64,000 nt of DNA, from the NCBI GenBank assembly GCA_019192445.1, contig JAHCMK010000006.1, positions 1 through 64,000 of the forward strand. Direction: 5' to 3'. Positions 7,255-21,771 of this stretch are shown here, one piece after another; position 1 is the stretch's first letter; each line of letters begins with the position of its first letter. Position numbers and translations under genes: made by a program. This DNA comes from Oceanococcus sp. HetDA_MAG_MS8 (lineage in GTDB: Bacteria; Pseudomonadota; Gammaproteobacteria; Nevskiales; Oceanococcaceae). The notes beneath the pieces are model-generated. The model made no database searches, was not told where the DNA came from, and saw nothing but the letters and a program-made list of their open reading frames with translations.

Positions 7255-8262
7255 TTAAGCGACGACTAAGGCTTTGGTGCAGGCATGCGCCACCGCACAT
7301 CCACTCAGCCAAGCCCCTTCGACGCGGCCGCCGCAAAGCCAATCCCCTGCCAAGAAGATTCCACTGTTGGCAGGATCTTGCCAAAACCCTTGCGCATAGA
7401 CCTCGCGTGGCGCAGTGGCATAACGCCAAAGATGCACATGTTGGGTGCTGATCGGTCCCTGCATCACATCAGCAACGATGGCTTCTAATTCCGCAACCGC
7501 AGCCTCCTGATCAGTGCAGGCCCGGGTACTCAGCTCAGGCCCAGCATGCACTGTCCACACGGGGTCGCTGGTATCAATCGCTCCAGGCTTGGTGCTGTTA
7601 CTCGCCATCCAAGCTATGTCTGGATGCGGGGAAAACAAGCCATCCCACGCCCAAGGAGGGCGAGCCAGTACGGTGATCGCAAGGCATGGCCCCAGGCTGG
7701 GCCATGGCGCTAATTCTGGGCTGGGTCTGAGCAAGGCACGGCTTTGCTGGGCCGGCGCGGTCACTACCACCTGTGGGGCAGTCCAGGTTCTTCCATCTTC
7801 ACAGTGGACCGTTACCGACTCGGCAAGACGCTCTATACGCGTCACCTTGGTTTGACAGAACAGCTCCAAGCCCTTCGCCTGAAGCTGCTGTGTCCAAGCA
7901 GTCAGCCAAGCATTCATTCCCCCGACGCCAGCGTAGCGTTGCTGGCCATCCTCAACAGCAACAGCAATACCGGGAGCACCACGGCCTAGCTGGGCATGCC
8001 ATTGATCCACTCGGCGCTGCTTGATCCAGGACCTTAGCCAAGCCTGGAAGCTGGGGTCCCGCGCCGTGAAGTACTGAGCCCCCGTGTCGAACCAAGCCGA
8101 GTCAGCGGCCGGCTGCAGACGCCGGGTTGCACAGCGTCCACCCGCCTTGCGCGCTTTATCGACCATCCTCACCCGCCAGCCCTGATCCAAGAAGACCTCG
8201 GCGGCGGCCAGACCAGATACGCCAGCTCCAACGATGAGAACATCAGCCATGTGGGCACTCAT
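7255..8262 (-). CDS. FAD-dependent oxidoreductase (renalase/amine-oxidase-like)
   Basis: 335 residues with an N-terminal Rossmann FAD motif (VLIVGAGVSGLAAAEVF) and the GGRCATRR segment typical of bacterial renalase-like NAD(P)/FAD oxidoreductases. The C-terminal FAD motif GIFLAGDWLCGGRVEGAW is also present. The substrate is unknown. The start ATG overlaps the CRY-DASH stop (ATGA), so the two are coupled. Such flavoproteins often sit beside cryptochromes and photolyases in light-inducible clusters. An in-frame ATG four codons later (8250) is an alternative start. Confidence 0.85.
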   Translation of the reverse strand: MSAHMADVLIVGAGVSGLAAAEVFLDQGWRVRMVDKARKAGGRCATRRLQPAADSAWFDTGAQYFTARDPSFQAWLRSWIKQRRVDQWHAQLGRGAPGIAVAVEDGQQRYAGVGGMNAWLTAWTQQLQAKGLELFCQTKVTRIERLAESVTVHCEDGRTWTAPQVVVTAPAQQSRALLRPSPELAPWPSLGPCLAITVLARPPWAWDGLFSPHPDIAWMASNSTKPGAIDTSDPVWTVHAGPELSTRACTDQEAAVAELEAIVADVMQGPISTQHVHLWRYATAPREVYAQGFWQDPANSGIFLAGDWLCGGRVEGAWLSGCAVAHACTKALVVA

Positions 8263-9581
8263 GACGAATAAGGCCAGTCAGCCGCGTCGACCGCGTTGAG
8301 GGGCACCACCTCAGCCGAGCCCCATTTGCGGATGAATTCTTCATTCGGGTCGTACATGCGAGTTTGCTTAGCAAGGTCGAAGCGCCGATGGCCGCGGGGA
8401 TCGGCGCCGACCCCTGCCAAATACTGCCAATTACCGTAATTACTGCCCAGGTCGTAGTCCACTAATTGCTGCTCAAACCAAGTGGCACCGAAGCGCCAGT
8501 CCAGCTCAAGCTCATGGACGAAGCAGCTAGCGACCAGTTGCCGCCCACGATTCGACATCCAGCCGGTCGTCGCCAACTGGCGCATACAGGCATCGACGAT
8601 GGGATAACCGGTCTCACCGGCTTCCCAGGCGCGTAGCCGCTGCGCGTAGTGACTGGTCATAGGACGTTGCTCACGCACACCTGCAAAGGCAAATAAGCGC
8701 TGACCATGCCGCCATGCGTACCACTGGAAGTACTCCCGCCATAGCAGCTCAAAGAACAGCCAATACGTTGATTCATTCGCCAAGACTTCCTGCTCGTAGC
8801 GAGCCAGCTCTGCTGCAACCCTCGCCACCGACAATGAGCCATTGGCCAGCCATGGCGACAACCTGGAACTTGCCAAAGGAGTATCCAAGGCATTGCGTGT
8901 CTCTTTGTAGCTTTGTACGGCATGCGTCTGAAAAAGAAATTCGTTGAGCTGCATGTTGCCCATGCGGCTACCGCCCACCCAGTCGGCCGCCTTGTCGAAG
9001 TCCACCTTTGGCAGCTCTTTGGGCCATTCGCGTGGCAGATCATCACTGACCATGGCCGGCAGTTGGCTCAGCATCGCTTCAGGTGGCCGCACCTGGGCGC
9101 GCTTTTCAACTTTGCGCCTGAATGGCGAAAAATGCCCTGGCAAGTCTTCCAATGCGAAGGGCAGGCGCTCCGGACTAAACAGAGTCGCCGTATGTGCTTG
9201 GCTAAACCGGACCTCGCCGAACCTTTGCTGAAGCTCCTGCCACTGGCGGTTTTCGTAAACGCCAGGATGTGCGGAACGCGCAACATCGGTCACACCCCAG
9301 CGCTGGATCAAAGCGCCAACCTCAACGATAGGATCTCCCCAGACCACGACCAACTGTTGACCTTGGCTTTGCAAGTCCGCCTGCAGATCCAACAGGGATT
9401 CGTAGAGAAACTTCCAGCGGTGTGGCCCCAGGCTCGGGCGCTGACACCACCCTGGCTTGAACCACAACGGGTCCACCACAAAAACACACAGCAAGCGGTC
9501 CACTCGGGCAGCGAGGCTGCCTAAGGCCGGATGGTCATCGAGACGAAGGTCTTGGCCGAAAAGAAATAATCCCGTACGCAT
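8259..9581 (-). CDS. cryptochrome DASH / photolyase-family flavoprotein
   Basis: 440 residues with an N-terminal photolyase fold (LFLFGQDLRLDDHPAL) and a C-terminal FAD domain. The latter holds the CRY-DASH block: SRLSPWLANGSLS, GETGYPIVDACMRQL, NRGRQLVASCFVHEL, then YDLGSNYGNWQYLAGVGADPR. CRY-DASH proteins bind FAD and an antenna cofactor, repair cyclobutane dimers in single-stranded DNA and act as blue-light receptors in some species. It is the first gene of a two-gene leftward operon with the FAD oxidoreductase. It is divergent from glutathione peroxidase across a 139-bp control region. Confidence 0.93.
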   Translation of the reverse strand: MRTGLFLFGQDLRLDDHPALGSLAARVDRLLCVFVVDPLWFKPGWCQRPSLGPHRWKFLYESLLDLQADLQSQGQQLVVVWGDPIVEVGALIQRWGVTDVARSAHPGVYENRQWQELQQRFGEVRFSQAHTATLFSPERLPFALEDLPGHFSPFRRKVEKRAQVRPPEAMLSQLPAMVSDDLPREWPKELPKVDFDKAADWVGGSRMGNMQLNEFLFQTHAVQSYKETRNALDTPLASSRLSPWLANGSLSVARVAAELARYEQEVLANESTYWLFFELLWREYFQWYAWRHGQRLFAFAGVREQRPMTSHYAQRLRAWEAGETGYPIVDACMRQLATTGWMSNRGRQLVASCFVHELELDWRFGATWFEQQLVDYDLGSNYGNWQYLAGVGADPRGHRRFDLAKQTRMYDPNEEFIRKWGSAEVVPLNAVDAADWPYSS

Positions 9582-9593
9582 GGGGAGCTGAGC

Positions 9594-9655
9594 TGTACAA
9601 GCAGACCTGCAGAATACCTATACATTTAATGAACGGCAATCAATATATGTGTACA
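9594..9655. promoter_or_regulatory. cluster of TGTACA-like boxes between cry and gpx
   Basis: Three boxes occur in this divergent control region: TGTACA at 9594-9599, TATACA at 9619-9624 and TGTACA at 9650-9655. They sit in or beside the two promoters proposed here. From memory, LitR-type MerR regulators recognise paired T(G/A)TACA half-sites 12 bp apart. The boxes here are not spaced 12 bp apart, so binding by the LitR-like protein encoded at 14.8 kb is only a hypothesis. Confidence 0.4.
9611..9639 (-). promoter_or_regulatory. candidate promoter of the cry operon
   Basis: Read leftwards, TTGCCG (9634-9639) and TATTCT (9611-9616) are separated by 17 bp and lie about 30 bp before the CRY-DASH start. 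A TGTATA box (9619-9624) lies inside the spacer, a position where a regulator could block or remodel the promoter. The same TATTCT hexamer is the -10 of the sRNA promoter near 15.86 kb. Confidence 0.4.
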
Positions 9656-9659
9656 TCTA

Positions 9660-9688
9660 TTGAACATTGCGGAGTGGCGGGCTATATT
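9660..9688 (+). promoter_or_regulatory. candidate promoter of the gpx-photolyase operon
   Basis: TTGAAC (9660-9665), a 17-bp spacer and TATATT (9683-9688) make a good sigma70-type match, with the start codon 32 bp after the -10. A TGTACA box ends 4 bp upstream of the -35. Confidence 0.5.
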
Positions 9689-9720
9689 TTCAGCTCTACG
9701 TCCATCCTTGGAGTGACCTC

Positions 9721-10299
9721 ATGCCCTCCACGTTTTTTCGCCGCGCGACACTCACTCTGCTTGGAATGGGCTTGGCCCTGAGCGGCGCCAGCTCTCGCGC
9801 AGACGATGCGCGTCTTGCGGCTTGCGCCGATATTCAAGCCCCTCCAGAGTTGTTAGCCAGCGAATCCAAGGGGGCACTCTGCGACTATTTCGAAGATGCG
9901 CGCGCAATCATGATTGTGAACACCGCATCGATGTGTGGTTACACGGGGCAGTTTTCTGGACTGCAGGAACTACATCAAACCTACGGGCCTCGAGGCCTGC
10001 GATTGCTTGGCTTTCCTTCCGACGATTTTGGAGGGCAAGAACATGCCAAAGCCGACAAGACAGCCGAGGTCTGCTTCAAGAATTTTGGGGTGAGCTTCCC
10101 CATGTTCAGCCAAGTCGATGTCCGGGGAGACACGGCCCATCCCCTGTTTCGTAAGCTTGCCAGCGCTAGCAACAGCGCTCCCCGCTGGAATTTTCATAAG
10201 TACCTCGTCACCGCCGAAGGTGTGCAAGGCTTTGCATCGTCCGTTGCCCCGCAGGATGCGCAGCTTCGCCGCGCGATCGAAGCCAGCCTGCAGAAGTAG
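9721..10299 (+). CDS. exported glutathione peroxidase-family protein
   Basis: 192 residues with a signal peptide (RRATLTLLGMGLALSGASSRA), so probably periplasmic. The thiol-peroxidase core shows the catalytic cysteine C72 in NTASMCGYTGQF, a glutamine in the second motif (GFPSDDFGGQEH) and the RWNFHKYLV block with Trp and Asn. Cysteine, not selenocysteine, is at the active site. Bacterial members usually reduce lipid or organic peroxides, often with thioredoxin. I chose the ATG at 9721, preceded by GGAG, because the upstream in-frame start would put the signal peptide inside the protein. It is the first gene of a six-gene light-response operon, suggesting it detoxifies peroxides formed in light. 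Confidence 0.88.
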   Translation: MPSTFFRRATLTLLGMGLALSGASSRADDARLAACADIQAPPELLASESKGALCDYFEDARAIMIVNTASMCGYTGQFSGLQELHQTYGPRGLRLLGFPSDDFGGQEHAKADKTAEVCFKNFGVSFPMFSQVDVRGDTAHPLFRKLASASNSAPRWNFHKYLVTAEGVQGFASSVAPQDAQLRRAIEASLQK

Positions 10300-10301
10300 C
10301 C

Positions 10302-11843
10302 GTGCACACCTCTCTGGCCGTGCTGTGGTTTAAGCGCGACCTCCGCCTGTACGACCATGCCGCTGTCACAGCAGCAAGTGCTCACCCGCGCGTGCTACCG
10401 GTGCTTGTTATTGAGCCGGAATACTGGCGCCAATCAGACCGCAGCCCCCGGCATTACGCCTTATGGCGACAGGCCGCAGAAGACTTGCTGCAAAGCCTCA
10501 GGGCGATGCAACGCCCGGGCTGGGTACGGCACGCACCCATCCTGCAAGCTCTGGATGAGCTACGCCGCCAATTTGGCGCCTTCACGCTCTACAGCCACCA
10601 GGAAACGGACTCGCAGTGGACATACAGCCGTGACCGCAGCGTGAGTCAATGGTGCCGAAATCAAGGCATGACCTGGACTCAGCCGCGCCAATTTGGGGTT
10701 GTGCGCGGCATGCGCCGGCGCCAAGGCTGGGCGCGTCAGTGGGAAGCGCTGATGACCGAGCAACCACTCGCGCAGCCTACATGGCAAGGCCAGCCGCCTC
10801 CACCGGGCGACCCTTTACCGCGATTACAGGACATCGACTTTTGCGCTCAAGACGAGCTTCCGACTACACAGCAGGATTCTCGAAGGGCGGCCAGCCTGCA
10901 ACGCCTGGAGCAATTTCTGCACCAGGATGGACACAGCTACCGCGGCGGTATGTCCAGCCCTATCAGTGCGCAGCGGGCATCATCCCGCTTGTCGTTGGCT
11001 TTGAGCGTGGGCAGCTTATCGCTGCGTGAAATTGTCCACCGCAGCCGCGAGCGCCTGCAAAATCTCGATCCAGATGACCCTGCGCAGCGACGTTGGCGCG
11101 CCAGCTTACGCAGCTTCGACAAGCGCCTGCATTGGCACTGCCACTTCATTCAAAAGCTGGAAACAGCCCCGCATTTAGAGCAGCGCAATATGCACTCTGC
11201 TTACGATGCTCTAGCGCCGGAACCAGTCACTCAGGATGCGCTTAACCGCTGGGTGCAGGGTCAAACTGGATGGCCGTTTGTGGATGCCTGTATGCGCTCG
11301 CTACGGCACAGCGGCTGGATCAATTTCCGTATGCGCGCCATGCTGGTCAGCGTCGCCAGCTACCACCTGGGAATTCATTGGCGCGAGTCAGGTGTGCTCT
11401 TGGCGCGAATTTTCTGCGACTACGAAGCCGGCATTCACTGGCCCCAAGTGCAGATGCAATCGGGCACGACCGGCATCAACACTTACCGCATGTATAACCC
11501 CATCAAGCAGGGCTTGGACCAAGACCCAGAGGCAAGTTTCATCGCCCAGTGGGTACCAGAACTCGCCTCGCTCCCCCCCGCCCTGCGCCACCAGCCCTGG
11601 AAGGCGGGCCACCCCCCTGCCGGATACCCCAGCCGGATTGGTGACCACAGCCTACTCGCTAGAGCGGCCCGGCAACGACGGGCAGGACTACGCAGTGGCG
11701 CTGCTTTTGCCCAAGAAGCGCGCGCCCTCCAGGCGCAGCTGGGTTCGCAGGCGAGTGGCATGAGCCGCAGCATGCGCGGCCAGCGCCGCCAGCCGCCTAA
11801 GCCGTCTGCGGCCAGCCGCCAACTTAGCCTCTTTCCGGAGTAG
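10302..11843 (+). CDS. photolyase/cryptochrome-family protein
   Basis: 513 residues from a GTG two bases after the gpx stop. The N-terminal photolyase domain begins LAVLWFKRDLRLYDHAAV. The FAD-binding C-terminal domain has WPFVDACMRSLRHSGWINFRMR, and the block QMQSGTTGINTYRMYNP with a downstream WVPELASLP. That last block marks a bacterial/cyanobacterial subgroup distinct from class I CPD photolyases. The C-terminal 80 residues are basic and low-complexity (RSMRGQRRQPPKP). It could be a repair enzyme or a cryptochrome-type receptor; the sequence alone does not decide. Confidence 0.85.
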   Translation: MHTSLAVLWFKRDLRLYDHAAVTAASAHPRVLPVLVIEPEYWRQSDRSPRHYALWRQAAEDLLQSLRAMQRPGWVRHAPILQALDELRRQFGAFTLYSHQETDSQWTYSRDRSVSQWCRNQGMTWTQPRQFGVVRGMRRRQGWARQWEALMTEQPLAQPTWQGQPPPPGDPLPRLQDIDFCAQDELPTTQQDSRRAASLQRLEQFLHQDGHSYRGGMSSPISAQRASSRLSLALSVGSLSLREIVHRSRERLQNLDPDDPAQRRWRASLRSFDKRLHWHCHFIQKLETAPHLEQRNMHSAYDALAPEPVTQDALNRWVQGQTGWPFVDACMRSLRHSGWINFRMRAMLVSVASYHLGIHWRESGVLLARIFCDYEAGIHWPQVQMQSGTTGINTYRMYNPIKQGLDQDPEASFIAQWVPELASLPPALRHQPWKAGHPPAGYPSRIGDHSLLARAARQRRAGLRSGAAFAQEARALQAQLGSQASGMSRSMRGQRRQPPKPSAASRQLSLFPE

Positions 11844-11845
11844 AT

Positions 11846-12331
11846 ATGCCTCCTTCGCAGATTGTCGTACGCCCCAATGCCTCGCTCAATCAGCAACAGG
11901 CCGCATGGATTTTGGGCGGCATGTGCGCCATTTCTTTCACGATTGCGGGCACTTTGGCCGTCCTAGGCTACTGGATCGTTTTGCCCTTTGCCGGGCTAGA
12001 AATGAGCTGCCTGGCCGCGGGGCTCTACTTTGCCCTGCGTGATAATGCCTACCGCGAGGTCATACGCAGCGATTCGGGGAAGCTGTTTATTGAGAAAGGT
12101 CGTGGCAAACCCGAGTCAGCCTGGCACTGCCCGCTGGCCTGGGCGCGCAGCCATTACCAGCCACCCGCAGGGCCCACTGCCCACGGCAAAGTCCTGATTA
12201 CTTACGCGGGCCAGAGCGTGGAAGTGGGCCGCATCCTCGCCGATGACGATAAACCCGAATTCGCTCGCAACCTGCAGCAGTGGCTGAGCCACGCCCAACA
12301 GGCGGCACTACAACCGGAGGGCGGCCTATGA
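11846..12331 (+). CDS. DUF2244 membrane protein
   Basis: 161 residues with two adjacent membrane helices (about 20-42 and 44-64) followed by a soluble domain of about 95 residues. The pattern matches DUF2244, an uncharacterised proteobacterial family (YFALRDNAYREVIR at the membrane boundary). It starts 2 bp after the photolyase stop and overlaps the next gene by ATGA. DUF2244 genes more often sit near cytochrome oxidase genes, so finding one among photolyases is unusual. Confidence 0.75.
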   Translation: MPPSQIVVRPNASLNQQQAAWILGGMCAISFTIAGTLAVLGYWIVLPFAGLEMSCLAAGLYFALRDNAYREVIRSDSGKLFIEKGRGKPESAWHCPLAWARSHYQPPAGPTAHGKVLITYAGQSVEVGRILADDDKPEFARNLQQWLSHAQQAALQPEGGL

Positions 12332-13056
12332 CCCCAGTCACCCTTGTCATTGGCGCCAGCTCCGGTATTGGCAGTGCGGTCGCGGAGCAGCTGCAAACAC
12401 TAGACAAAGTCGTTTACGGAGCCGGCCGCGCCACGCAGCCTCCATCGCAGCTGCAGCAACACTGGTTACAACTCGACTTCTACGACCCCGCCAGCATCAC
12501 ACAGGCCTTTGAAACACTCGCCGACACCCTCAATGAGCGCGAACAAAGGCTGCAGCAGTTACTCATTTGCAGTGGCTTACTACATGATGCAGACACCAGC
12601 CCTGAACGACGCCTCGGCCAGCTGCGCGCAGAAGACTTCAGCAAGCTGATGCAGGTTAACGCCTTGGCCCCACTACTCTTAGCCCAAGCGGCATTACCGT
12701 TACTGTCACGGCGGGAGCCCACGCGTATCGCTGCCATCTCTGCCCGCGTAGGAAGCATTGGCGACAACCGCATGGGGGGCTGGTATAGCTACCGCTGCGC
12801 TAAGGCGGCCTTGAACATGGGCTGGCGCTGCCTGGCCCACGAGCTGCGCCGTTCGCACCCCAGCTGCACACCTTTGCTGTACCACCCCGGAACGGTTGAC
12901 ACCGATCTATCCAAGCCCTTCCAGAGCAATGTCAAAGCAAACAAGCTATTCAGCAGCCACCAGGCGGCGAGATACTTCTTGGAGGTGCTTGAACAACACG
13001 GCGATTGCGCTGAGCTTGCTTATTTAGATTGGGCCGGCAAGCCCATTGCGTGGTAA
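12328..13056 (+). CDS. short-chain dehydrogenase/reductase (C-factor-like)
   Basis: 242 residues from an ATG overlapping the DUF2244 stop. It has the SDR nucleotide motif [13 protein letters not shown], a catalytic serine region ([12 protein letters not shown]) and the YxxxK pair in [16 protein letters not shown]. The [12 protein letters not shown] segment is typical of the C-factor/CsgA-like SDR subgroup. SDRs of this subgroup recur in proteobacterial photolyase clusters, but the substrate is unknown. The frame stays open 16 codons upstream inside DUF2244; the coupled ATG is preferred. Confidence 0.85.
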
Positions 13057-13058
13057 GC

Positions 13059-13190
13059 ATGGCGCACCGCAAACCGCATCTCCCGCACAAAGATTGCCAG
13101 CGCTGCGGCAAACCCTTTGCCTGGCGCAAGAAGTGGGCACGTGACTGGGAGCAGGTCAAATATTGCTCGGAGCGCTGTCGCCGTGGCTAA
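13059..13190 (+). CDS. DUF2256 small zinc-binding protein
   Basis: A 43-residue gene starting [20 protein letters not shown] and ending YCSERCRRG. It has two Cys pairs (CQRC and CSERC) around [16 protein letters not shown], the full DUF2256 signature and a probable zinc knuckle. Its ATG is 2 bp after the SDR stop and its last 8 bases overlap the GTG start of the Fe-S photolyase gene, so it is almost certainly co-translated with it. The family is known as a frequent small partner of this photolyase class; its job is unknown. It could act as a nucleic-acid-binding or assembly helper. Confidence 0.88.
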
Positions 13191-14718
13191 GCCCCAACGC
13201 CTGATTATCATCCTTGGCGACCAGCTGGCTCTGGACAGTGTCTTACCGAGCGACTACCGCAAAGGCGAAGACCTGCTGTGGATGTGCGAAGCCCATAGTG
13301 AAGCCACGCGCGCCTGGTCCCATAAAGCTCGGCTGGTGATGTTTTTGGCGGCTATGCGCCACTTCGCCCAAGAACTAGAAGACGACCAGCACAGTCTGAT
13401 TTATCGCCGCGACTGCCCTGACCTCAGCCAGCAGCTGGCCAAGGATCTCAACAGCCTCCAGCCCGATTGCGTACACCTCACCCAGCCTGGTGATTACGAC
13501 TTACGACACAGCATCATCGAAGCCGTAGAGGAGCACTCTCTGCCATTGGTAGAGCGCGACGATCCGCATTTTCTTTGCAGCTTAGAGCGCTTCAATGATT
13601 GGGCCGAAGGGCGCAAGACCTATCGCATGGAGTTCTTCTACAGGGAGATGCGGCGCGAGCACAGCGTACTCTTGGAAGATGACGGCGAGCCCCGTGGCGG
13701 ACAATGGAATTTCGACGCCGACAATCGCGACAGCTTCGGCAAGCAAGGCCCTGGTGAATTACCCGAACCCATCACATTTAGGCCTGATGACTGCACCCAG
13801 CAAGTCATCAAAGAGGTCGAGGAACGTTATGCCGAGCATCCCGGCCAGACCCAATACTTTGACTGGCCAGTGCAACGCTCAGATGCGCTCAAAGCCCTGG
13901 AGGATTTCGTCGAGCATCGGCTGGCGCAGTTTGGGCAGTATCAAGACGCAATTTGGACCGGCGAGCCCTGGCTATACCATAGCCGTATCGCGGCCGCTCT
14001 TAATCTCCATCTGCTTCACCCGCGTGAAGTCATTGAAGCTGCCACGGCGGCCCTAGATGCAAAGAAGGCGCCGCTGAATGCCGTGGAAGGCTTCGTCCGT
14101 CAGATTTTGGGCTGGCGCGAGTATGTGCGCGGTCTTTATTGGCTACGCATGCCGCAGTGGCGAGAGGAAAACCACCTGGAGGCCGAGCTGCCGCTACCGG
14201 AGTTCTTCTGGACCGGCGACACCGATATGGTCTGCCTCAAAGATGCGATTGAGCAAACCCTGAAATATGGCTACGCGCATCATATTCAAAGGCTCATGAT
14301 CGCCGGCTTATTCTGCCTACTAGCTGGAGTTCGACCGCACGAGGTCCATGGATGGTACTTGGCCGTTTATGTGGATGCGGTGGAGTGGGTGGAGCTGCCC
14401 AATACCTTGGGCATGAGCCAGTTTGTGGATGGCGGTGTTCTGGCAAGTAAGCCCTATATCGCCAGCGGCGCCTACATAAGCCGCATGAGCAATGCTTGCA
14501 GCCAATGTCGCTACAACCCCAAACTCAAAGTGGGCGCCAAAGCCTGCCCCATCACTACCTTGTACTGGGATTTTTTAGCGCGCCACGAACAGCGCTTTGC
14601 CCAGCATCCCCGACTCAAAATGCAGCTACGGAATCTGCAACGGCTGGATGACAGCACTCGTGATGCCATTCAAGACCAGGCGCGGTCGTTACGGCAGAGC
14701 TGGAGTAAAGCCAGCTGA
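13183..14718 (+). CDS. phrB: Fe-S bacterial cryptochrome/photolyase (PhrB-type, (6-4) photolyase)
   Basis: 511 residues from a GTG inside the DUF2256 gene. The family signature is clear: [10 protein letters not shown] at the start, [12 protein letters not shown] in the FAD domain, and a C-terminal cysteine cluster [12 protein letters not shown]...[10 protein letters not shown]. Four cysteines (C351, C439, C442, C455) have the spacing of the [4Fe-4S] ligands of Agrobacterium PhrB, and two adjacent histidines (about 366-367) match those needed for (6-4) repair. It should repair UV (6-4) photoproducts using FAD and a lumazine-type antenna. It is the last gene of the gpx operon, followed by a hairpin shared with the convergent regulator gene. 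Confidence 0.93.
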
Positions 14719-14771
14719 GGTGAAGGCAGGCAGGCTCTCAAGTGATTGGGGCGCGCCAATCCGAATAACAA

Positions 14772-14801
14772 GGCCGACGCTAAACAGAATTAGCGCCGGC
14801 C
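14772..14801. terminator. hairpin between convergent phrB and merR genes
   Basis: GGCCGACGCTAA (14772-14783) pairs with TTAGCGCCGGCC (14790-14801) over 12 bp with one mismatch and a 6-nt loop. It lies midway between two convergent stop codons. On the minus strand it is followed by CCTTGTTATT, so it is a better terminator for merR than for phrB. Confidence 0.55.
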
Positions 14802-14819
14802 ATCATCTGCTGGCTGCGC

Positions 14820-15785
14820 TCAGTCGCCGTCCGGCTCGGCTGCACCCTTGCCAAACTCATGCTCAATGAGGTGATGCAGCGCATCTTCCATCATGCGCCG
14901 GGCACGCGCTGTGGTATGGAATAGCAGTGTGTGAACCGCCGCATCTGTGGGATTGCGCGACTCACAATCACGGGAGTAAGACTCAAACGCGGACAACTTA
15001 GTAATGAGTGCAGCCAAGTGCTCGGGGCACTCGCACTGCACCGAGCGGGCCTGACCAGCCCAGCGCCGCAGCTCCAGGTCTGTAAATCGACGCGCCGGCG
15101 GCGGCTCCTTCAAGAACCCCGCCGGGTCCGGCATGCTGGAATCAACGGCTGCTGGAGTGGCGTTCACTAATGCCGGCAACATTTTTTGCAGCTCAGCCAC
15201 CCGCACAGGCGCCGACACAGTGTGAACACCAGCACGATGTAACTGCGCCAAATTTTCGGAGTTACCAAACTGGTAAATCACCATCACCGTCGTCGCCGAC
15301 ACATGCTCGGCTAACCGGCGGATCAGCTGAGCGCTATCTGGAGTGATGATGGTCAGCTCAACCACCAACACATCAGCCACTTCCGGAGGCGCTGCCAAAG
15401 CGGCCTCGGGGGTGACGTGGCAGGCCACTGTCATGTTGGAATCGCTGGCGCCAGACTCTGGCCATTCCATACCCAGGTGAGGCCCTACAACAACCGCGCC
15501 TACAGGGCCGCTGAGTGTTGGCCGAAAGTCCGGCAACCCTGCCAAGCGCTGCCCCAGCTCCACATCACTCAAGCTGGCTACCGTAGAAATGGCATGGCCG
15601 GCATCCACAAGCTGCTTCAGCATAGCCAGGCGGGCCACCTGAGCACGGCTATACAAGCGCCCATTCGCCGGCGTGCGATATGGCTCCACAGCCTTGTAAC
15701 GGCGTTCCCACATACGGATCGTGACCGCGGCAATGCCGGTGAGTCTCTCGACCGCGCCGATCCGGTACGACTGCTCATTCGCCAT
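14820..15785 (-). CDS. MerR-family regulator, LitR/CarH-like
   Basis: 321 residues. An N-terminal MerR winged helix (YRIGAVERLTGIAAVTIRMWERRYKAVEP, then GRLYSRAQVARL) joins a LitR/CarH-like middle region and a Rossmann-type C-terminal domain (LVVELTIITPDSAQLIRRL, TVMVIYQFG). In B12-dependent light sensors this last domain carries an ExxH histidine motif; I do not find a convincing one, so the protein may lack cobalamin. The ATG at 15785 follows GAGGAA; an ATG at 15815 lacks a ribosome site. Its position beside cry and photolyase genes points to a regulator of the light-response island. It is divergent from the sRNA candidate and the repair operon. Confidence 0.8.
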   Translation of the reverse strand: MANEQSYRIGAVERLTGIAAVTIRMWERRYKAVEPYRTPANGRLYSRAQVARLAMLKQLVDAGHAISTVASLSDVELGQRLAGLPDFRPTLSGPVGAVVVGPHLGMEWPESGASDSNMTVACHVTPEAALAAPPEVADVLVVELTIITPDSAQLIRRLAEHVSATTVMVIYQFGNSENLAQLHRAGVHTVSAPVRVAELQKMLPALVNATPAAVDSSMPDPAGFLKEPPPARRFTDLELRRWAGQARSVQCECPEHLAALITKLSAFESYSRDCESRNPTDAAVHTLLFHTTARARRMMEDALHHLIEHEFGKGAAEPDGD

Positions 15786-15819
15786 GGACGATTCCTCTTC
15801 CGGAAGTTTTTTCATGTTT

Positions 15820-15845
15820 TGTCCACGTTTGGTGTTGACTGTCCA
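15820..15845. promoter_or_regulatory. direct TGTCCA repeats upstream of merR
   Basis: TGTCCA occurs at 15820-15825 and 15840-15845, exactly 20 bp apart. The second copy begins on the last base of the sRNA -35 and runs into the spacer. The inverted form ATATGGACA recurs at 16022-16030, and TGTCCATAT is at 15840-15848. These are plausible operator half-sites for the MerR protein, allowing autoregulation and control of the rightward promoter. Confidence 0.4.
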
Positions 15846-15863
15846 TATATTGTGCGCTATTCT
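15835..15863 (+). promoter_or_regulatory. sigma70-type promoter of the sRNA candidate
   Basis: TTGACT (15835-15840), a 17-bp spacer and TATTCT (15858-15863) point rightwards. Predicted transcription starts near 15870. No start codon with a ribosome site follows before the terminator at 15962. Confidence 0.55.
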
Positions 15864-15869
15864 GCCTAC

Positions 15870-16003
15870 GAAGTCGAAGAAAACAAACCGACAACCGAGT
15901 CCCTCCCCCGCGCTGACTGACCCGTCAGCGCAACTCGTCGCCGACCCCCGGCGACACCCAAGGCCGCGGTGGCCCCTCCTCCCGTAACACCGCGGCCTTT
16001 TTT
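15870..16003 (+). ncRNA. candidate C-rich small RNA with CCUCCUCCC loop
   Basis: About 134 nt lie between a sigma70-like promoter and a strong intrinsic terminator, with no plausible open frame. Three perfect hairpins can be read: GCGCTGAC/GTCAGCGC (15910-15931, loop TGACCC), GTCGCCG/CGGCGAC (15937-15955, loop ACCCC) and a 10-bp terminator stem (15962-15997). The terminator's 16-nt loop contains CCTCCTCCC (15975-15983). A further unpaired CCCTCCCCC lies before the first hairpin. Loops of this kind are anti-Shine-Dalgarno-like and resemble the CCUCCUCCC 'cuckoo'/CcsR RNAs of alphaproteobacteria and C-rich RNAs such as Xanthomonas sX13. Alternatively it is an attenuating leader of the repair operon that starts at 16.1 kb. 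The start is predicted, not observed. Confidence 0.6.
15962..16003 (+). terminator. strong intrinsic terminator of the sRNA candidate
   Basis: GGCCGCGGTG (15962-15971) pairs perfectly with CACCGCGGCC (15988-15997) and is followed at once by six T residues. No coding gene ends upstream on this strand, so it must end a non-coding transcript or act as an attenuator. Confidence 0.85.
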
Positions 16004-16021
16004 ATGCCTGCCGTCTGTGAA

Positions 16022-16064
16022 ATATGGACACAAGGTGTACAGAAAGCGGGGGTAAGGGTCTACA
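16022..16064 (+). promoter_or_regulatory. control region of the ligase-associated repair operon
   Basis: ATATGGACA (16022-16030) is the exact inverse of TGTCCATAT found in the sRNA promoter. TGTACA follows at 16036-16041 and TCTACA at 16059-16064, 17 bp apart, a weak -35/-10 pair. The shared boxes suggest the MerR protein controls both promoters. This is pattern-based only. Confidence 0.35.
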
Positions 16065-16112
16065 CTCAACGGACGCGAACACCCGAAGACCAAAATCCAT
16101 TGTGTGTGCATA

Positions 16113-17099
16113 ATGCCTGTGTTAACGCTGTCTGACCATGGTTTGTACTGCCCTGCGGCAGATCTGTACATAGACCCTTGGCGCCCCGTCGATAAAGCCA
16201 TCATTACGCACGCCCATGCCGACCATGCCCGCCCCGGACACCAGCATATTCTGGCCAGTCAGGAGTCCTGGCCCCTGCTCCAACATCGCCTGGGAAGCAC
16301 CACTGGGCAAGCACTTCGCTACGGTGAAGGCATTTCTATACAGGGGGTGCGGATTAGTCTGCACCCGGCTGGGCACATCTTGGGCTCTGCCCAAGTTCGC
16401 CTAGAGCACAAGGGTGAGGTCTGGGTGGTTAGCGGAGACTACAAGCGCCAATCCGACCCCACCTGTACAGCTTTTGAAGTAGTCCATGCGCATACCTTTA
16501 TCTCCGAAGTGACATTCGGACTGCCGGTCTACCGCTGGCCAGAGCCGAGCACGGTCTTTGCTCAGATCCACCAGTGGTGGGACGATTGCGCCGAACGCGG
16601 ACAAGCGGCCGTATTGTGCTGCTACGCCCTCGGCAAGGCCCAGCGGATCTTGCAGGGCATGTTAGGTGCGGAGCGCCCCATCTATCTGCATGGCGCCATG
16701 CAGCCGCTCACCCAGATTTACCGGGAATCTGGGGTGCAGATGGCCCAGGCCGCCCCCGTCCCGGTCAAGGGCACAGACCTTAGCGGCGCCCTGGTGCTGG
16801 CGCCCCCCAGTGCCGTAGGCACACCCTGGATGCGGCGCTTCAATCGTGTATCCACCGGATTTGTTTCCGGCTGGATGCAGCTGCGGGGCAACCGACGGCG
16901 ACGGGGCTTCGATCGCGGCTTTGTGCTCTCCGACCATGCCGACTGGCCGGCGCTTATCCAAACCATTGAGGAGATCAATCCTCAGCGCACCCTACTCACC
17001 CATGGTGACGGCAGCGCACTCACCCGCTGGATGCGTGAACAAGGCCGCGACATTGCCGCCCTGCATCAGGTCGCGCGAAATGCCCAGGACGACGGATGA
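16113..17099 (+). CDS. ligase-associated DNA exonuclease (metallo-beta-lactamase fold)
   Basis: About 328 residues. It opens LTLSDHGLYCPAADLYIDPW and carries the metal-binding motif THAHADHARPG, a second histidine in HPAGHILGSAQV and an aspartate in VVSGDYKRQ, and LSDHADWPAL near the end. These features match the 'ligase-associated DNA exonuclease' family, related to the mRNA 3'-end processing (CPSF) nucleases. It is the first gene of a four-gene repair operon and overlaps the ligase gene by ATGA. Family members start close to the ATG at 16113; a GTG three codons upstream is also possible. Neither has a strong ribosome site. Confidence 0.9.
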   Translation: MPVLTLSDHGLYCPAADLYIDPWRPVDKAIITHAHADHARPGHQHILASQESWPLLQHRLGSTTGQALRYGEGISIQGVRISLHPAGHILGSAQVRLEHKGEVWVVSGDYKRQSDPTCTAFEVVHAHTFISEVTFGLPVYRWPEPSTVFAQIHQWWDDCAERGQAAVLCCYALGKAQRILQGMLGAERPIYLHGAMQPLTQIYRESGVQMAQAAPVPVKGTDLSGALVLAPPSAVGTPWMRRFNRVSTGFVSGWMQLRGNRRRRGFDRGFVLSDHADWPALIQTIEEINPQRTLLTHGDGSALTRWMREQGRDIAALHQVARNAQDDG

Positions 17100-18679
17100 A
17101 AGCCTTCGCCGCACTGTACGCCGCGCTAGATGCCAGCACCAAAACGCAGCATAAGCGAGCCGCTATTGTCGACTTTCTGCGGCATACCCCAGAGGATGAG
17201 GCCAGCTATGGGCTGGCTGTGCTCTGTGGGTATCGCCCGCGACGCAGCATCAGCGGCAGCCGTCTGCGCGCCCTGGCGGCTCGAGCTTGCGGCCTGCCCA
17301 GTTGGCTCATTGACGAAAGCTACCATCATGTTGGCGACCTCGCGGAGACCTTGGCACTTCTGCTGCCCCCGGCCGAGGCGGCGCAGTCACGGCCTCTGAG
17401 TTACTGGCTAGAAGAAGGGCTCCCCGAGTTGGCGCGCCTCAACGCCGCCGAACAGGATCAGCGCATAGAGCAGATATGGGCCGAGCTTCCAAACAGCGAA
17501 CGACTGGTGTTTCACAAGCTGCTTACCGGAGGCTTACGCGTGGGCGTGGCTCGGCAAAGCGTCGTGCATGCCCTGGCTGAATTTTTTGACGAAGACGCTG
17601 GCGCCATAGCGGCCAGACTCATGGGCCGAATTCGCCCGCACCCGGAATGGCTGCAAGAGCTCAGTCAACCCGGCCGCGCAGATGTGTTGGCGCCTTATCC
17701 CTTCTTGCTCGCGCACCCCCTGGATGGAGAGCCTCGAAGCCTGGGCCCTACCGATGATTTCCTGGCCGAGTGGAAATGGGATGGCATTCGCGCACAACTG
17801 GTCCACCGCTCGGAAACCGGACTGTGGTCGCGCGGGGAAGAGCTCCTTGACGGCGCCTTTCCCGACCTTTGTGAGCCGGCCAAAGGCCTGCCCATCGGCA
17901 CCGTTCTCGATGGCGAGGTAGTGGCTTGGCAAAACCAGCGCGTTGCCCACTTCAGCCAGCTGCAACGACGCCTCAACCGTAAGCGCCCCAGCCCAAGCTT
18001 ACTGAGCGAGGTGCCAGCGCGCTATGTGGTGTACGACCTGCTGGAAGAGGCTGGCCAGGATCTACGCGAGCAGCCTTTGCAGCACAGACGCCAACGCCTG
18101 CAGGCCCTCTTAGAGGCACACAACGGTCCCTGGCATTTGTCCCCAGCGCTAGCTGCTGCCGATTGGGCGCAGTGGACCCATATCCGCGCTCAAGCCCGCG
18201 ACGAAGGCGCCGAAGGACTCATGCTCAAACGGCTGGATAGCGCTTACAGCGGAGGGCGTCCACGCGGGCTGTGGTGGAAATGGAAGCTAGACCCCTACAC
18301 CGTGGATTGCGTACTCCTCTACGCCCAAGCCGGCCACGGACGCCGCTCCGGCTTACACACCGATTACACCTTGGCCGTGTGGAAAGGCGACGAGCTAGTG
18401 CCTGTTACCAAGGCTTATTCTGGCCTGAGTGACAAAGAGTTTTTGGCCTTAGACCGCTGGATACGCGCGCATACCCGCGAGCGCTTCGGCCCGGTTCGCT
18501 CCGTAGAGCCGGCGCAGGTGCTAGAAATCGCCTTCGAGGGCATCCAATCCTCCAAACGGCACAAGTCCGGCCTGGCCCTGCGCTTCCCACGCATTGCCCG
18601 CTGGCGCCAAGACAAAACCGCCGCGGATGCCGACCACCTCCATCAGCTTCAAGCCCTCCTCGACGGAGCGCCCGCGTGA
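17096..18679 (+). CDS. ATP-dependent DNA ligase
   Basis: 527 residues. An N-terminal DNA-binding domain is followed by the nucleotidyltransferase core with the adenylated lysine K227 in FLAEWKWDGIRAQ. Further motifs are SRGEELLDGAFPDL, LDGEVVAW, GLMLKRLDSAYSGGR and WWKWKLDPYTVDCVLL, and an OB-fold ends the protein. This is the ATP-dependent ligase of the bacterial ligase/exonuclease/helicase/PdeM set, distinct from the replicative NAD+-dependent LigA. It is coupled to both neighbours by 4-base overlaps (ATGA before, GTGA after). It probably seals breaks made during processing of damaged DNA. Confidence 0.95.
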   Translation: MKAFAALYAALDASTKTQHKRAAIVDFLRHTPEDEASYGLAVLCGYRPRRSISGSRLRALAARACGLPSWLIDESYHHVGDLAETLALLLPPAEAAQSRPLSYWLEEGLPELARLNAAEQDQRIEQIWAELPNSERLVFHKLLTGGLRVGVARQSVVHALAEFFDEDAGAIAARLMGRIRPHPEWLQELSQPGRADVLAPYPFLLAHPLDGEPRSLGPTDDFLAEWKWDGIRAQLVHRSETGLWSRGEELLDGAFPDLCEPAKGLPIGTVLDGEVVAWQNQRVAHFSQLQRRLNRKRPSPSLLSEVPARYVVYDLLEEAGQDLREQPLQHRRQRLQALLEAHNGPWHLSPALAAADWAQWTHIRAQARDEGAEGLMLKRLDSAYSGGRPRGLWWKWKLDPYTVDCVLLYAQAGHGRRSGLHTDYTLAVWKGDELVPVTKAYSGLSDKEFLALDRWIRAHTRERFGPVRSVEPAQVLEIAFEGIQSSKRHKSGLALRFPRIARWRQDKTAADADHLHQLQALLDGAPA

Positions 18680-21081
18680 GCACGCATCCCTTAGAGCCCT
18701 GGATCTTGGCGCGAGGCTGGCAGCCCTTGGACCATCAACGCGATGTTTGGCAAGCCCGGAGCCGTGGCGAGGAAGGCCTGTTGCTCGCACCCACTGGGCA
18801 TGGCAAGTCACTGGCTGGCCTGGGCTGCGTCCTGCGCGAGGATGTGCAGCCTGGAGGCTTGCGCCTGTTATGGATTACACCGCTGCGGGCGCTGGCACAG
18901 GATCTGGCCGCCGAGCTCGCCTTGCCCTTGAGCGAGCTACGGCCAGACTGGCAGGTGCAGTCACGGAGCGGCGACACCAGCGCTTACCGTAAACAGCAAC
19001 AACGAAAACGCCTGCCGGAAGTGCTGATTACCACACCAGAGTCGGCCAGTTTGCTGCTGTCCTATGGCGATCTACTTCCGGCACTCACCCAGATCGATAC
19101 CGTCGTCGTAGATGAGTGGCACGAGCTCATCGCCAACAAACGCGGCATCCAAACCCAGCTGGTCCTGGCGGCCTTACGCCAACTCAATCCCGCCCTGCGT
19201 GTGTGGGGCTTATCGGCCACCCTGGGCAATGCTCAGCAAGCCGGCGAGGCCTTGGTCGGGCCCAACCCCATTCTGATTCATGCAAAGCGTCGCAAGCAGC
19301 TACAAATTCACACCCTGCTGCCCAAAGACCCTCAGCGGATTAGCTGGGCGGGCCACCTGGGCCTGAAGATGTTGGATCAGGTCAAAGCCAAACTTCTTCA
19401 GGCCGGCTCTACCCTGCTCTTCGCCAACACCCGTGCGCAAGCTGAACTATGGTTTGAAGCGCTAGCGGCGGAGCCGGAGCTACAGGATCAGGTTGGGCTG
19501 CATCATGGATCTCTAGACGCCAGCGTGCGCCAGGCGGCCGAACAAGGCTTGAAGACGGGCGCCCTGCGCTGCGTGGTCGCCACCTCCAGCCTAGACCTGG
19601 GCGTGGACTTCAGCCCGGTAGAGCAGGTGATTCAAGTTGGCTCCCCGCGCACCTTGGCCCGCCTGGTCCAACGCGCCGGACGCGCCGGCCATCAGCCCGG
19701 AGCCGTGAGCCAGATACTCTGTGTGCCCACCCACACCCTAGAGATGGCCGAGTTCGCAGCAGCGCGCCAAGCCTGGGCCGAAGGGCGCATGGAGCCCCGG
19801 CAACCGCTCGCCGGCAGCTTAGATGTGCTCTCGCAGCATGTGCTCACCCGCTGCCTGGGGCAGCCTCAGGATGCTGAGCAGCTCTATGCCGAAGTGCAGC
19901 AAGCCCCGGCGTATGCCGAGCTGGGCCGCAAGCAATGGGATTGGGTGCTCGATTTTCTGGGTCGTGGCGGCGAGGTCTTACGCGCCTACCCGGAGTACCA
20001 CCGGCTGCAAAGCAATGACCAGGGCCGGCTCATGGTCAGCAATGCCACCACGGCGCGGCGTCATCGGATGATGATTGGGACCATCGCCGCCGATAGCACC
20101 ATGTCCTTGCGCTGGACCAAGGGCGGTCGCATTGGTCAAGTTGAAGAGGCCTTCATCGCCAGACTCAAACCCGGCGACAGCTTCCTCTTCGCCGGGCGCG
20201 CTCTAGAGCTCGTGCGCGTCCAGGGCCTCACGGCCTATGCCAGACTCGCCCGCGGCAAGCGGGTGGCCGTGCCGCGCTGGAGCGGCGGGCGCCTGCCCTT
20301 ATCGGAGTCCTTGGCCGCCGCCTTCGTCACGCAATTACAGCAAGGCGTCCAAGGACCTGAACACCAGGCTCTACAGCCTTTGCTCACGCTGCAGCAACAG
20401 CAATCGGCCTTGCCCAGCTTGGAGTACCTATTGGTAGAAAGCCTGCGCTCCCGCGAGGGTTGGCATCTGTGCCTGTACCCTTGTGCTGGACGGGCGGTGC
20501 ACGAAGGGCTGGGCGCGCTGCTCGCCCATCGTGCCAGCCAAGCCCAACCACGAAGTATTACCGTGGCCGCCAATGATTATGGGCTGGAACTGCTGTCCAG
20601 CTCGGCCTGGCCAGAGGATCATGAGTGGCTCAAAAGCCTACTGAGCATTCAGGATCTAGAGCAGGAAATTGAGCTGGCGATGAACGCCACCGAGCTGGCC
20701 AAGCGCCATTTTCGGGAGATCGCCCAAGCCGCCGGCCTGGTCTTCACGGGCTATCCTGGCCGTGGCAAAAGTGCGCGCCAAGTGCAAATGTCTACCGGGC
20801 TGCTGTTCGACGTCTTCGCCCGTTACGACCCGGACAATCCTTTGCTACACCAAACCCGCGATGAAGTTCGCTTGCGTGAGCTGGACTGGCCACGCCTAGA
20901 GCGCACGGTGAAGCGCTTAAGCCAGCTCCCCTTACGCTGGACACGCCCCGAGCGTCTCACTCCCTTTGCCTTCCCTTTGTATGCGGAAGCACAGCGCCAA
21001 CAGCTCTCTACAGAATCTTTGGCCGATAGGCTGCAGCGCATGCAGCAACAATTGGAACGAGCCGCAGGGGAGACCACATAG
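18676..21081 (+). CDS. ligase-associated DEXH-box helicase (Lhr-type)
   Basis: 801 residues from a GTG overlapping the ligase stop. The superfamily 2 motifs are clear: Walker A LLLAPTGHGKSLAG, PLRALAQDL (Ia), TTPESASLLL, VVVDEWHEL (DEXH form), WGLSATLG, then SSLDLGVDFSPV and RLVQRAGRAGHQPG in the second RecA domain. A large Lhr-type C-terminal region follows. Family members are 3'-5' DNA translocases/helicases. This shorter Lhr form is usual in the ligase-associated operon and probably unwinds or remodels the damaged substrate for the exonuclease and ligase encoded upstream. Confidence 0.95.
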   Translation: MSTHPLEPWILARGWQPLDHQRDVWQARSRGEEGLLLAPTGHGKSLAGLGCVLREDVQPGGLRLLWITPLRALAQDLAAELALPLSELRPDWQVQSRSGDTSAYRKQQQRKRLPEVLITTPESASLLLSYGDLLPALTQIDTVVVDEWHELIANKRGIQTQLVLAALRQLNPALRVWGLSATLGNAQQAGEALVGPNPILIHAKRRKQLQIHTLLPKDPQRISWAGHLGLKMLDQVKAKLLQAGSTLLFANTRAQAELWFEALAAEPELQDQVGLHHGSLDASVRQAAEQGLKTGALRCVVATSSLDLGVDFSPVEQVIQVGSPRTLARLVQRAGRAGHQPGAVSQILCVPTHTLEMAEFAAARQAWAEGRMEPRQPLAGSLDVLSQHVLTRCLGQPQDAEQLYAEVQQAPAYAELGRKQWDWVLDFLGRGGEVLRAYPEYHRLQSNDQGRLMVSNATTARRHRMMIGTIAADSTMSLRWTKGGRIGQVEEAFIARLKPGDSFLFAGRALELVRVQGLTAYARLARGKRVAVPRWSGGRLPLSESLAAAFVTQLQQGVQGPEHQALQPLLTLQQQQSALPSLEYLLVESLRSREGWHLCLYPCAGRAVHEGLGALLAHRASQAQPRSITVAANDYGLELLSSSAWPEDHEWLKSLLSIQDLEQEIELAMNATELAKRHFREIAQAAGLVFTGYPGRGKSARQVQMSTGLLFDVFARYDPDNPLLHQTRDEVRLRELDWPRLERTVKRLSQLPLRWTRPERLTPFAFPLYAEAQRQQLSTESLADRLQRMQQQLERAAGETT

Positions 21082-21084
21082 GCC

Positions 21085-21771
21085 ATGCACCGCATTACGC
21101 TAGGTGAGCAGCAGTTGCTGCTGCTGCCAGACCGCGCCCTGTACTGGCCCACCCACAAAGCCGTGGTGGTGGCCGATATCCACTTAGGCAAAGGCGCGTC
21201 ATTCCGCGAGCAAGGCCTCCCGCTACCGCAAGGAGGCACGCAAACGGATCTGGACCGGCTGAGCCGTCTCATACACGACCAGCAAGCTGAGCAGCTACTC
21301 GTATTAGGTGACCTGATCCATGGCGGCGCCCGCCAGCCTGAACAACGTTGGATCGCTCAAGCGCAGTTGTGGCGGGAACAGCACGCACAACTGCAGCTGC
21401 ACTGGGTGGTTGGCAATCATGACCGCGCCCCGGAAGAACTGGCACGGCGTTGGCGGGCCGAGCTGATTCGCGAAGGCGCACAATGGTCTGGCGTGCAGCT
21501 TTGGCATCACCCTAGCGAAGATCTGAGCCAGCCCAGCCTGGGGGGCCACTGGCACCCCGTGGCGAGAATTCAACCGGGGGCACGCCAAAGGCTGCGCCTG
21601 CCGGTGTTTTGGTTGGAACAGCATCGATTGGTGCTTCCAGCCTTTGGCAGCCTCACCGGAGGCCATCCGGTTGCACCCACCCCCCACACCCACTTGTGGG
21701 CCTGCGCTGAGCAGCACATCATTGCGCTACAGCGTCTCCACCATGGCTTTGCACCGAGGAGTACACGATGA
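21085..21771 (+). CDS. pdeM: ligase-associated endonuclease PdeM
   Basis: 228 residues with the calcineurin-like phosphoesterase motifs VVADIHLGKGASFRE, LVLGDLIHGGARQPE, VVGNHDR and a C-terminal GGHWHPVARI. This is PdeM, the Mn-dependent nuclease/phosphodiesterase of the ligase-associated repair set. It begins 3 bp after the helicase stop and overlaps the next gene (ATGA). With it the operon holds all four usual members of the set. Confidence 0.93.
   Translation: MHRITLGEQQLLLLPDRALYWPTHKAVVVADIHLGKGASFREQGLPLPQGGTQTDLDRLSRLIHDQQAEQLLVLGDLIHGGARQPEQRWIAQAQLWREQHAQLQLHWVVGNHDRAPEELARRWRAELIREGAQWSGVQLWHHPSEDLSQPSLGGHWHPVARIQPGARQRLRLPVFWLEQHRLVLPAFGSLTGGHPVAPTPHTHLWACAEQHIIALQRLHHGFAPRSTR

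Follow-up and report, generated by a model that had tools for sequence, protein, structure and literature searches.

Positions 15870..16003 of the forward strand are proposed to hold a candidate stand-alone small RNA (sRNA) of about 134 nt, located between the gene of a LitR-like regulator and a DNA repair operon. The window, meaning the whole stretch of DNA that was analyzed, comprises the first 64,000 nt (64 kb) of contig JAHCMK010000006.1 of an Oceanococcus genome (hereafter G000). Judging from the sequence, a probability of roughly 0.55 was given to the reading that this stand-alone unit is a LitR-repressed, probably light-induced sRNA whose C-rich unpaired segments pair with the G-rich regions where ribosomes bind. 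The computed basis consists of the structure, compensatory conservation with one sister genome of the same genus (G001), the promoter and operator layout, and a stand-alone unit in a third genome from another family of the same order (G067); transcription, light control, the direction of regulation, and the mode of action are what we infer. Taken as a whole, this is a real-looking sRNA candidate without an Rfam family; its design appears to be a known one, the regulatory setting new.

The ends of the unit were set from its promoter and terminator. Its predicted fold opens with a weak 5' hairpin of 4 bp (GUCG/CGAC, 15873..15892), followed by an unpaired linker, CCGAGUCCCUCCCCC (15895..15909), in which the pyrimidine run had a mean unpaired value of 0.85. 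Next come hairpin 1 (15910..15931, with an 8-bp stem of 15910-15917 and 15924-15931), hairpin 2 (15937..15955, with a C-rich loop and a 7-bp stem of 15937-15943 and 15949-15955, 6 bp of which were modelled), and the terminator hairpin with its U tract (15960..16003, with a 12-bp stem of 15960-15971 and 15988-15999), all on the forward strand. The loops of these three hairpins are UGACCC, ACCCC, and GCCCCUCCUCCCGUAA, and the terminator loop holds CCUCCUCCC. Since this loop is 16 nt long, the terminator was missed by a pattern allowing loops of 3-8 nt and was found by a separate terminator scan. The fold energy of 15870-16003 was −57.1 kcal/mol, compared with a mean of −32.4 (sd 3.36) for 200 dinucleotide shuffles (z = −7.35), none of which was as good.

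The unit contains no ATG, no TTG, and one GTG (15969, inside the terminator stem). Mechanically predicted ORFs traverse 15870-16003, and open frames run across much of the unit in both G000 and G001, where the encoded peptides were dissimilar by eye. Long open frames are common in GC-rich DNA, and we take the ORFs crossing the unit for non-coding. No family reached its gathering score in an Rfam scan of the window, and a scan of the G000 and G001 units returned no sRNA family at E up to 5. The original prediction had described a structured non-coding unit of about 134 bases, which was borne out by this ATG-free stretch with its promoter, three perfect hairpins, and strong terminator; the second C-rich run claimed for the leader was likewise recovered as the linker at 15895-15909.

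A DNA search of four genomes of the family matched G000 and G001. The homologous unit in G001 is 69% identical and has the same two neighbors. All 28 pairs of the four-helix structure were kept between the two (28/28), five of them through compensatory changes on both sides (hairpin 1 has three of these, hairpin 2 and the terminator one each); all four pairs of the weak 5' hairpin were invariant in G001 and thus carry no covariation information. Sliding the partners by 1-3 columns gave 0 two-sided changes, and 8 of 500 column shuffles reached the observed covariation. With only two alignable sequences, this compensatory conservation is regarded as good but not overwhelming. C made up 48% and G 8% of the unpaired bases in G000 (61% and 3% in G001), and the G001 terminator loop carries CCCCCCCUCCUC where G000 has CCUCCUCCC.

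By itself, the C-rich motif is not beyond chance. The copy of CCTCCTCCC at 15975-15983 was the only one in the window, and at least one copy occurred in 42 of 100 window shuffles (0.53 expected per window). This expectation, together with a C-rich-loop terminator that ends an apparently ordinary coding stretch in another genome (locus L187 of G303), would suit an explanation in which the unit is a mere terminator with structured filler between the divergent repressor promoter and the repair operon, its C-rich loops being meaningless. That explanation appears very improbable, since hairpins 1 and 2, dispensable for a terminator, show compensatory changes, and the 15-nt unpaired linker CCGAGUCCCUCCCCC is unchanged between G000 and G001 at 69% overall identity.

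The regulator gene (14820..15785, reverse strand) is predicted to encode a LitR/CarH-like MerR-family repressor of 321 aa, with its start placed at the ATG behind GGAAGAGGA. MerR_1 (4.3e-13) and MerR were the only Pfam models matched at E up to 0.001, with no B12-binding model among them; the NCBIfam CarH model matched residues 1-65 at 5.4e-11, far under its cut-off. The predicted fold has an HTH, a receiver-like middle domain, and a helical part, and the top Foldseek matches of this model were T. thermophilus CarH (E 1e-6) with poor superposition (TM 0.20). That the repressor senses light is assumed from its family and from its neighborhood, which includes photolyase and cryptochrome genes. 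Ten aligned LitR homologues shared an invariant CxCPxH ... C ... D ... H set within the C-terminal helical part, which lies behind the receiver-like middle domain, and the protein of 14820-15785 would be an unusual sensor in which no chromophore site is recognised.

On the other side of the unit, the repair operon begins on the forward strand with a ligase-associated DNA damage response exonuclease gene (16113..17099, TIGR04122 above cut-off) and continues with ligase (17096-18679), helicase (18676-21081), and PdeM (21085-21771) genes (TIGR04120, TIGR04121, and TIGR04123 of NCBIfam, all above cut-off). A DASH cryptochrome gene lies at 8259-9581 on the reverse strand. The stretch 8259-21771 reads as a light/UV repair island, with DASH cryptochrome, photolyase-family, DPRP family, LitR-like, exonuclease, ligase, helicase, and PdeM genes.

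A promoter scan placed a sigma70-type promoter, TTGACT-17-TATTCT, at 15835..15863 (forward strand). This was the sole promoter-like match in 14500-17200, where shuffles gave a mean of 1.0, and it is not significant by itself; its TTGACT is retained in G001 and G067. CarH/LitR-type tandem 11-bp repeats were found just upstream of the −35 (15809..15828, forward strand, 9/10 positions) and, on the reverse strand, between the terminator and the repair operon (16022..16041, 10/10), with a weaker tandem repeat, TGTCCA-N5-TGTGCG, within the promoter spacer (15840..15859, forward strand). Upstream of its own unit, G001 also carries a tandem 11-bp repeat with 9/10 positions, and the spacer repeat recurs at the matching place as TGTACA-N5-TGTGCG in G001 and as TGTATC-N5-TGTATA in G067. 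The original prediction had proposed boxes shared with the MerR-type gene, and this idea survived in a sharper form, as the CarH-type tandem repeats at 15809-15828 and 16022-16041 and the weaker pair at 15840-15859.

The strict form TGTMCA-N5-TGTMCA had a single occurrence genome-wide, at 16025-16041, and a looser form had 8 sites (1 in the control). Two of these eight lie in promoter regions of this locus, one (40160) falls within a transporter gene, and ORF reading placed at least part of the remainder inside genes too. In the 64-kb window, five two-unit repeats agreed at 9 or all 10 positions (at 9605, 9647, 15809, 16022, and 27134), compared with 1.3 expected from mononucleotide shuffles, and four of these five best repeats sit in two intergenic stretches of the light/repair locus. 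A glutathione-peroxidase-like gene and the DASH cryptochrome gene flank two of these CarH/LitR-type tandem repeats (9605-9666) and probably belong to the same regulon. Upstream of LitR homologues more generally, TGTNNA-type words stood 11 bp apart 26 times, in 23 of 91 distinct regions, compared with 0.19 expected from dinucleotide shuffles (maximum 2 in 100 shuffles), and none of the other spacings from 6 to 40 occurred more than twice. The 91 regions are 99 minus eight duplicates from two collections; an earlier count over the 99, with a mononucleotide control, was 28.

CarH operators are described in the available part of one source as tandem 11-bp direct repeats of nAnnTnnACAn (PMC8156234), which reads TGTnnAnnT on the opposite strand. 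According to the accessible text of another, the class II LitR of P. mendocina represses a light-induced TTGACT-N16-TATGAT promoter from a site overlapping the −35 (PMC9758184). The promoter of the candidate sRNA resembles these LitR/CarH promoters, as far as the same partial texts describe them, in its tandem 11-bp direct repeats at and overlapping the promoter, its TTGACT −35, and its adjoining repressor gene (PMC8156234, PMC9758184). It differs in that the P. mendocina site, TGTACA-N12-TGTACA, has a spacing of 18 rather than 11 (PMC9758184), in that CarH operators hold three or four repeats where pairs are found here (PMC8156234), and in that the regulated products in the texts available are proteins, whereas here the product would be an RNA. 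The proposed light control is supported by operator-like sequence.

The covariance model, which was built from the G000 and G001 sequences, gave a score of 19.9 bits, with E 0.003 in a search of 83 kb, at the G067 LitR locus. There, a shorter unit adjoins the LitR homologue; its promoter is laid out in the same way, and it contains hairpins and a UCUCCUCC stretch and ends in a terminator. The neighboring gene is transcribed toward it, with the stop codon directly against the terminator, so this unit is not the leader of a gene behind it. Base-by-base alignment with the G000 unit was not possible. Unpaired bases in G067 were 27% C and 12% G, the terminator loop is AAAU with no C run, and the unpaired part is not C-rich overall; G067 has in common with the other two its location, the repeat-bearing promoter, a series of hairpins, and a single CUCC stretch. 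C-richness is a property of G000 and G001, and the 9-mer CCUCCUCCC of G000 alone. In a tree of 93 LitR-like proteins, those of G000, G001, G067, and locus L034 formed one clade (support 99/92), three of whose four members have the unit; L034 has an apparent protein gene in its place. The ORF behind the LitR homologue of G067 (L035 4036-5226) reads like a photolyase/cryptochrome-family protein.

The G067 arrangement bears on the main alternative, already named with the original prediction, that the unit is a leader or attenuator of the repair operon, in which the LitR-controlled promoter would serve the exonuclease-ligase-helicase-PdeM genes and the terminator would stop most transcripts until read-through is permitted. 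The exonuclease gene follows the unit in both G000 and G001, the promoter scan of the window gave no other consensus promoter before 16113, and the U tract in G001 ends 20 nt before the exonuclease ATG, which leaves little room for another promoter. We consider this explanation unlikely, however, as the G067 unit precedes a convergent gene and, of 20 exonuclease loci that could be tested, only those of G000 and G001 have this terminator upstream. Those loci derive from 57 matches in the order, of which 30 were fetched and 20 were testable (10 were dropped, the start-placing motif not being found); two others carry different hairpin-and-T matches. The downstream operon is the standard form of the ligase-associated cassette (TIGR04120-04123), which elsewhere among these loci stands without the upstream unit. 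Within the window, the 10/10 LitR-type repeat and about 110 nt separate the terminator from the gene, and the unit lacks an ATG for a leader peptide. When the 3' arm of the terminator was blocked, the predicted fold came to −39.9 compared with −57.1 kcal/mol, the only additions being a local hairpin of 4 bp and a closing helix of 3 bp, with no strong mutually exclusive antiterminator in that fold. Because the G001 terminator ends 20 nt ahead of the exonuclease ATG, read-through into the repair operon is possible and may feed the operon in that genome; sRNA and attenuator roles could coexist.

The distribution of the stand-alone unit was followed through the order and the class. Among 22 LitR-like loci of the order that were read (full-length matches, one per genome, leaving aside a second copy in G038 and the shorter L026-L033), the unit was present in G000, G001, and G067. 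A terminator scan of the best 80 of 565 confirmed LitR loci, using a script that needs a simple hairpin before TTTT and may overlook other terminators, gave rows for seven loci and the unit at L035 (the G067 locus); a few loci had little upstream DNA (5 bases at L060). In a covariance scan of 85 genomes of the order, the strong matches among the best candidates scored per genome (37 at most) were G000 and G001. Six other genomes of the order reached 16.4-19.4 bits among the candidates scored; these were taken as chance, with broken pairs in the three alignments inspected (five were rescanned). Looking beside litR homologues and searching by covariance had both been suggested with the original prediction. 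Among the 22 loci of the order and the best 80 of 565, the element was recognized in G000, G001, and G067, with a tentative, different C-rich unit in G041, and the covariance model gave no further strong match among the candidates scored in the 85 genomes.

A scan of 369 genomes of the class, with at most the best eight candidates each, gave one further match at E up to 0.01, in G413 (30.1 bits, E 5e-4). Its location is unrelated, downstream of a 108-aa ORF, and its terminator loop has CCUCCUCCCC; no LitR gene was seen among the ORFs of the 3.1 kb read around it, and it was taken as convergent. The G413 element is possibly an independent C-rich 3'-end RNA, and the ar14 model of Rfam matched it below threshold (25.2 of 58.8 bits). 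At L153 1501-1605 (G413), the terminator loop is GACCUCCUCCCCUUA and a CCUCCCCCC run lies upstream, behind the 108-aa ORF. The order and class scans used strict filters and the best candidates per genome only, so that weak homologues may escape, as G067 did. A terminator-with-CCTCCTCC pattern matched 6 of the 369 genomes, including G000 (0 in the backward control); the matches in G000, G413, and G303 look like true terminators when read and folded, and the other three look like chance. The G303 terminator (L187 near 1501) has the loop UACCAUCCCUCCUCCAACUUUU, and C-rich-loop terminators are rare but recurrent in the class. Near another LitR homologue (L013 2656-2730, G041), a short C-rich terminator-ended unit has an 11-bp repeat upstream; it was not counted as a homologue, being shorter and having a regulator outside the clade. 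A search of plasmids gave no match, and the Rfam matches on G067 were below cut-off (Betaproteobacteria_toxic_sRNA, suhB, and anti-hemB). The element seems restricted to one lineage.

The original prediction had read CCUCCUCCC as the hallmark of alphaproteobacterial cuckoo/CcsR RNAs. As described in the accessible part of one source, the cuckoo, ar14 (NfeR1), and CcsR RNAs resemble the candidate in having C-rich anti-Shine-Dalgarno-like loops on stable hairpins, with variable stems and constant loops (PMC10746234). In ar14, however, CCUCCUCCC is found in every hairpin, whereas the candidate has it in one of three and neither G001 nor G067 preserves it. According to the available text, CcsR RNAs share a transcript with a DUF1127 gene (PMC10253847). 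No DUF1127 gene was found in the G000 genome, where a search for PF06568 gave 0 matches at E up to 0.001 with a positive E. coli control. Neither the G000 nor the G001 locus matched the cuckoo, ar14, or CcsR models of Rfam at E up to 5. CCUCCUCCC was therefore rejected as a family mark, since it occupies one hairpin loop only and is replaced by CCCCCCCUCCUC in G001 and AAAU in G067, with neither a DUF1127 gene nor an Rfam match.

Nor is a C-rich-loop sRNA new in kind for a gammaproteobacterium, given the published text available on sX13 of Xanthomonas (PMC3771888). In that text, the C-rich loops of sX13 repress mRNAs with G-rich motifs near start codons, independently of Hfq (PMC3771888). Like the candidate, sX13 is gammaproteobacterial. 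It is described there as having an unpaired 5' part, three stable stem-loops, and C-rich loops (PMC3771888). Three stem-loops and C-rich loops were seen in the candidate, with only CCC in the first loop and a weak hairpin in the 5' part; the likeness is one of design, sequence having been compared through Rfam scans only. The two differ in setting: sX13 adjoins polA in the description available, and the candidate adjoins the LitR-like gene and the TIGR04122 exonuclease. We know of no role of light for sX13. The best reading is that the candidate would work like sX13 and the cuckoo/ar14 RNAs, with class membership in either not claimed.

The same architecture might serve as a decoy, bound by a protein or by another RNA that is specific for single-stranded C-rich sequence. 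In G000 and G001, strong stems present a number of similar unpaired C-rich segments, which resemble a repeated binding platform, and between these genomes the stems change and the loops stay C-rich; sX13, the closest studied C-rich RNA, nevertheless targets G-rich mRNA motifs in the text available (PMC3771888), and the decoy idea is considered improbable.

Pairing with mRNAs is judged the likeliest mode of action of the proposed LitR-repressed sRNA. In the dark, the tandem 11-bp repeats that overlap and flank the sRNA promoter would be occupied by the repressor. The repressor would leave on exposure to light, or to whatever signal it senses, and the sRNA would be transcribed divergently from the repressor gene, folding into a series of stable hairpins closed by a strong terminator and exposing its C-rich unpaired linker and loops. 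These C-rich segments would then pair with G-rich Shine-Dalgarno-like regions of mRNAs and lower their translation. Complements of the 15-nt linker numbered 102 genome-wide (itself included) compared with 157 for the reversed control, which gave no target enrichment. Among the 101 other sites, 29 were inspected and 10 had a start codon (of an ORF of at least 60 aa) within 25 nt, none of them convincing; anti-Shine-Dalgarno motifs match too many sites to discriminate targets.

A broader interpretation is offered tentatively, and is less likely than not. A LitR/CarH-type repressor may have a regulatory RNA as its divergent target, and this light-induced, multi-site, anti-Shine-Dalgarno-like RNA would damp the translation of many mRNAs at the time when the photolyases and the ligase-exonuclease-helicase operon are switched on. 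Such an RNA would be a separately evolved gammaproteobacterial counterpart of the C-rich photo-oxidative RNAs of Alphaproteobacteria, and its transcription might occasionally continue into the repair operon. No sRNA under LitR or CarH was reported in the titles and abstract openings of the open-licence literature searched. If the interpretation is true, a LitR/CarH photoregulator would control an sRNA directly, joining light sensing to translation control in a gammaproteobacterium, and a further C-rich hairpin RNA in a stress response would make convergent design testable.
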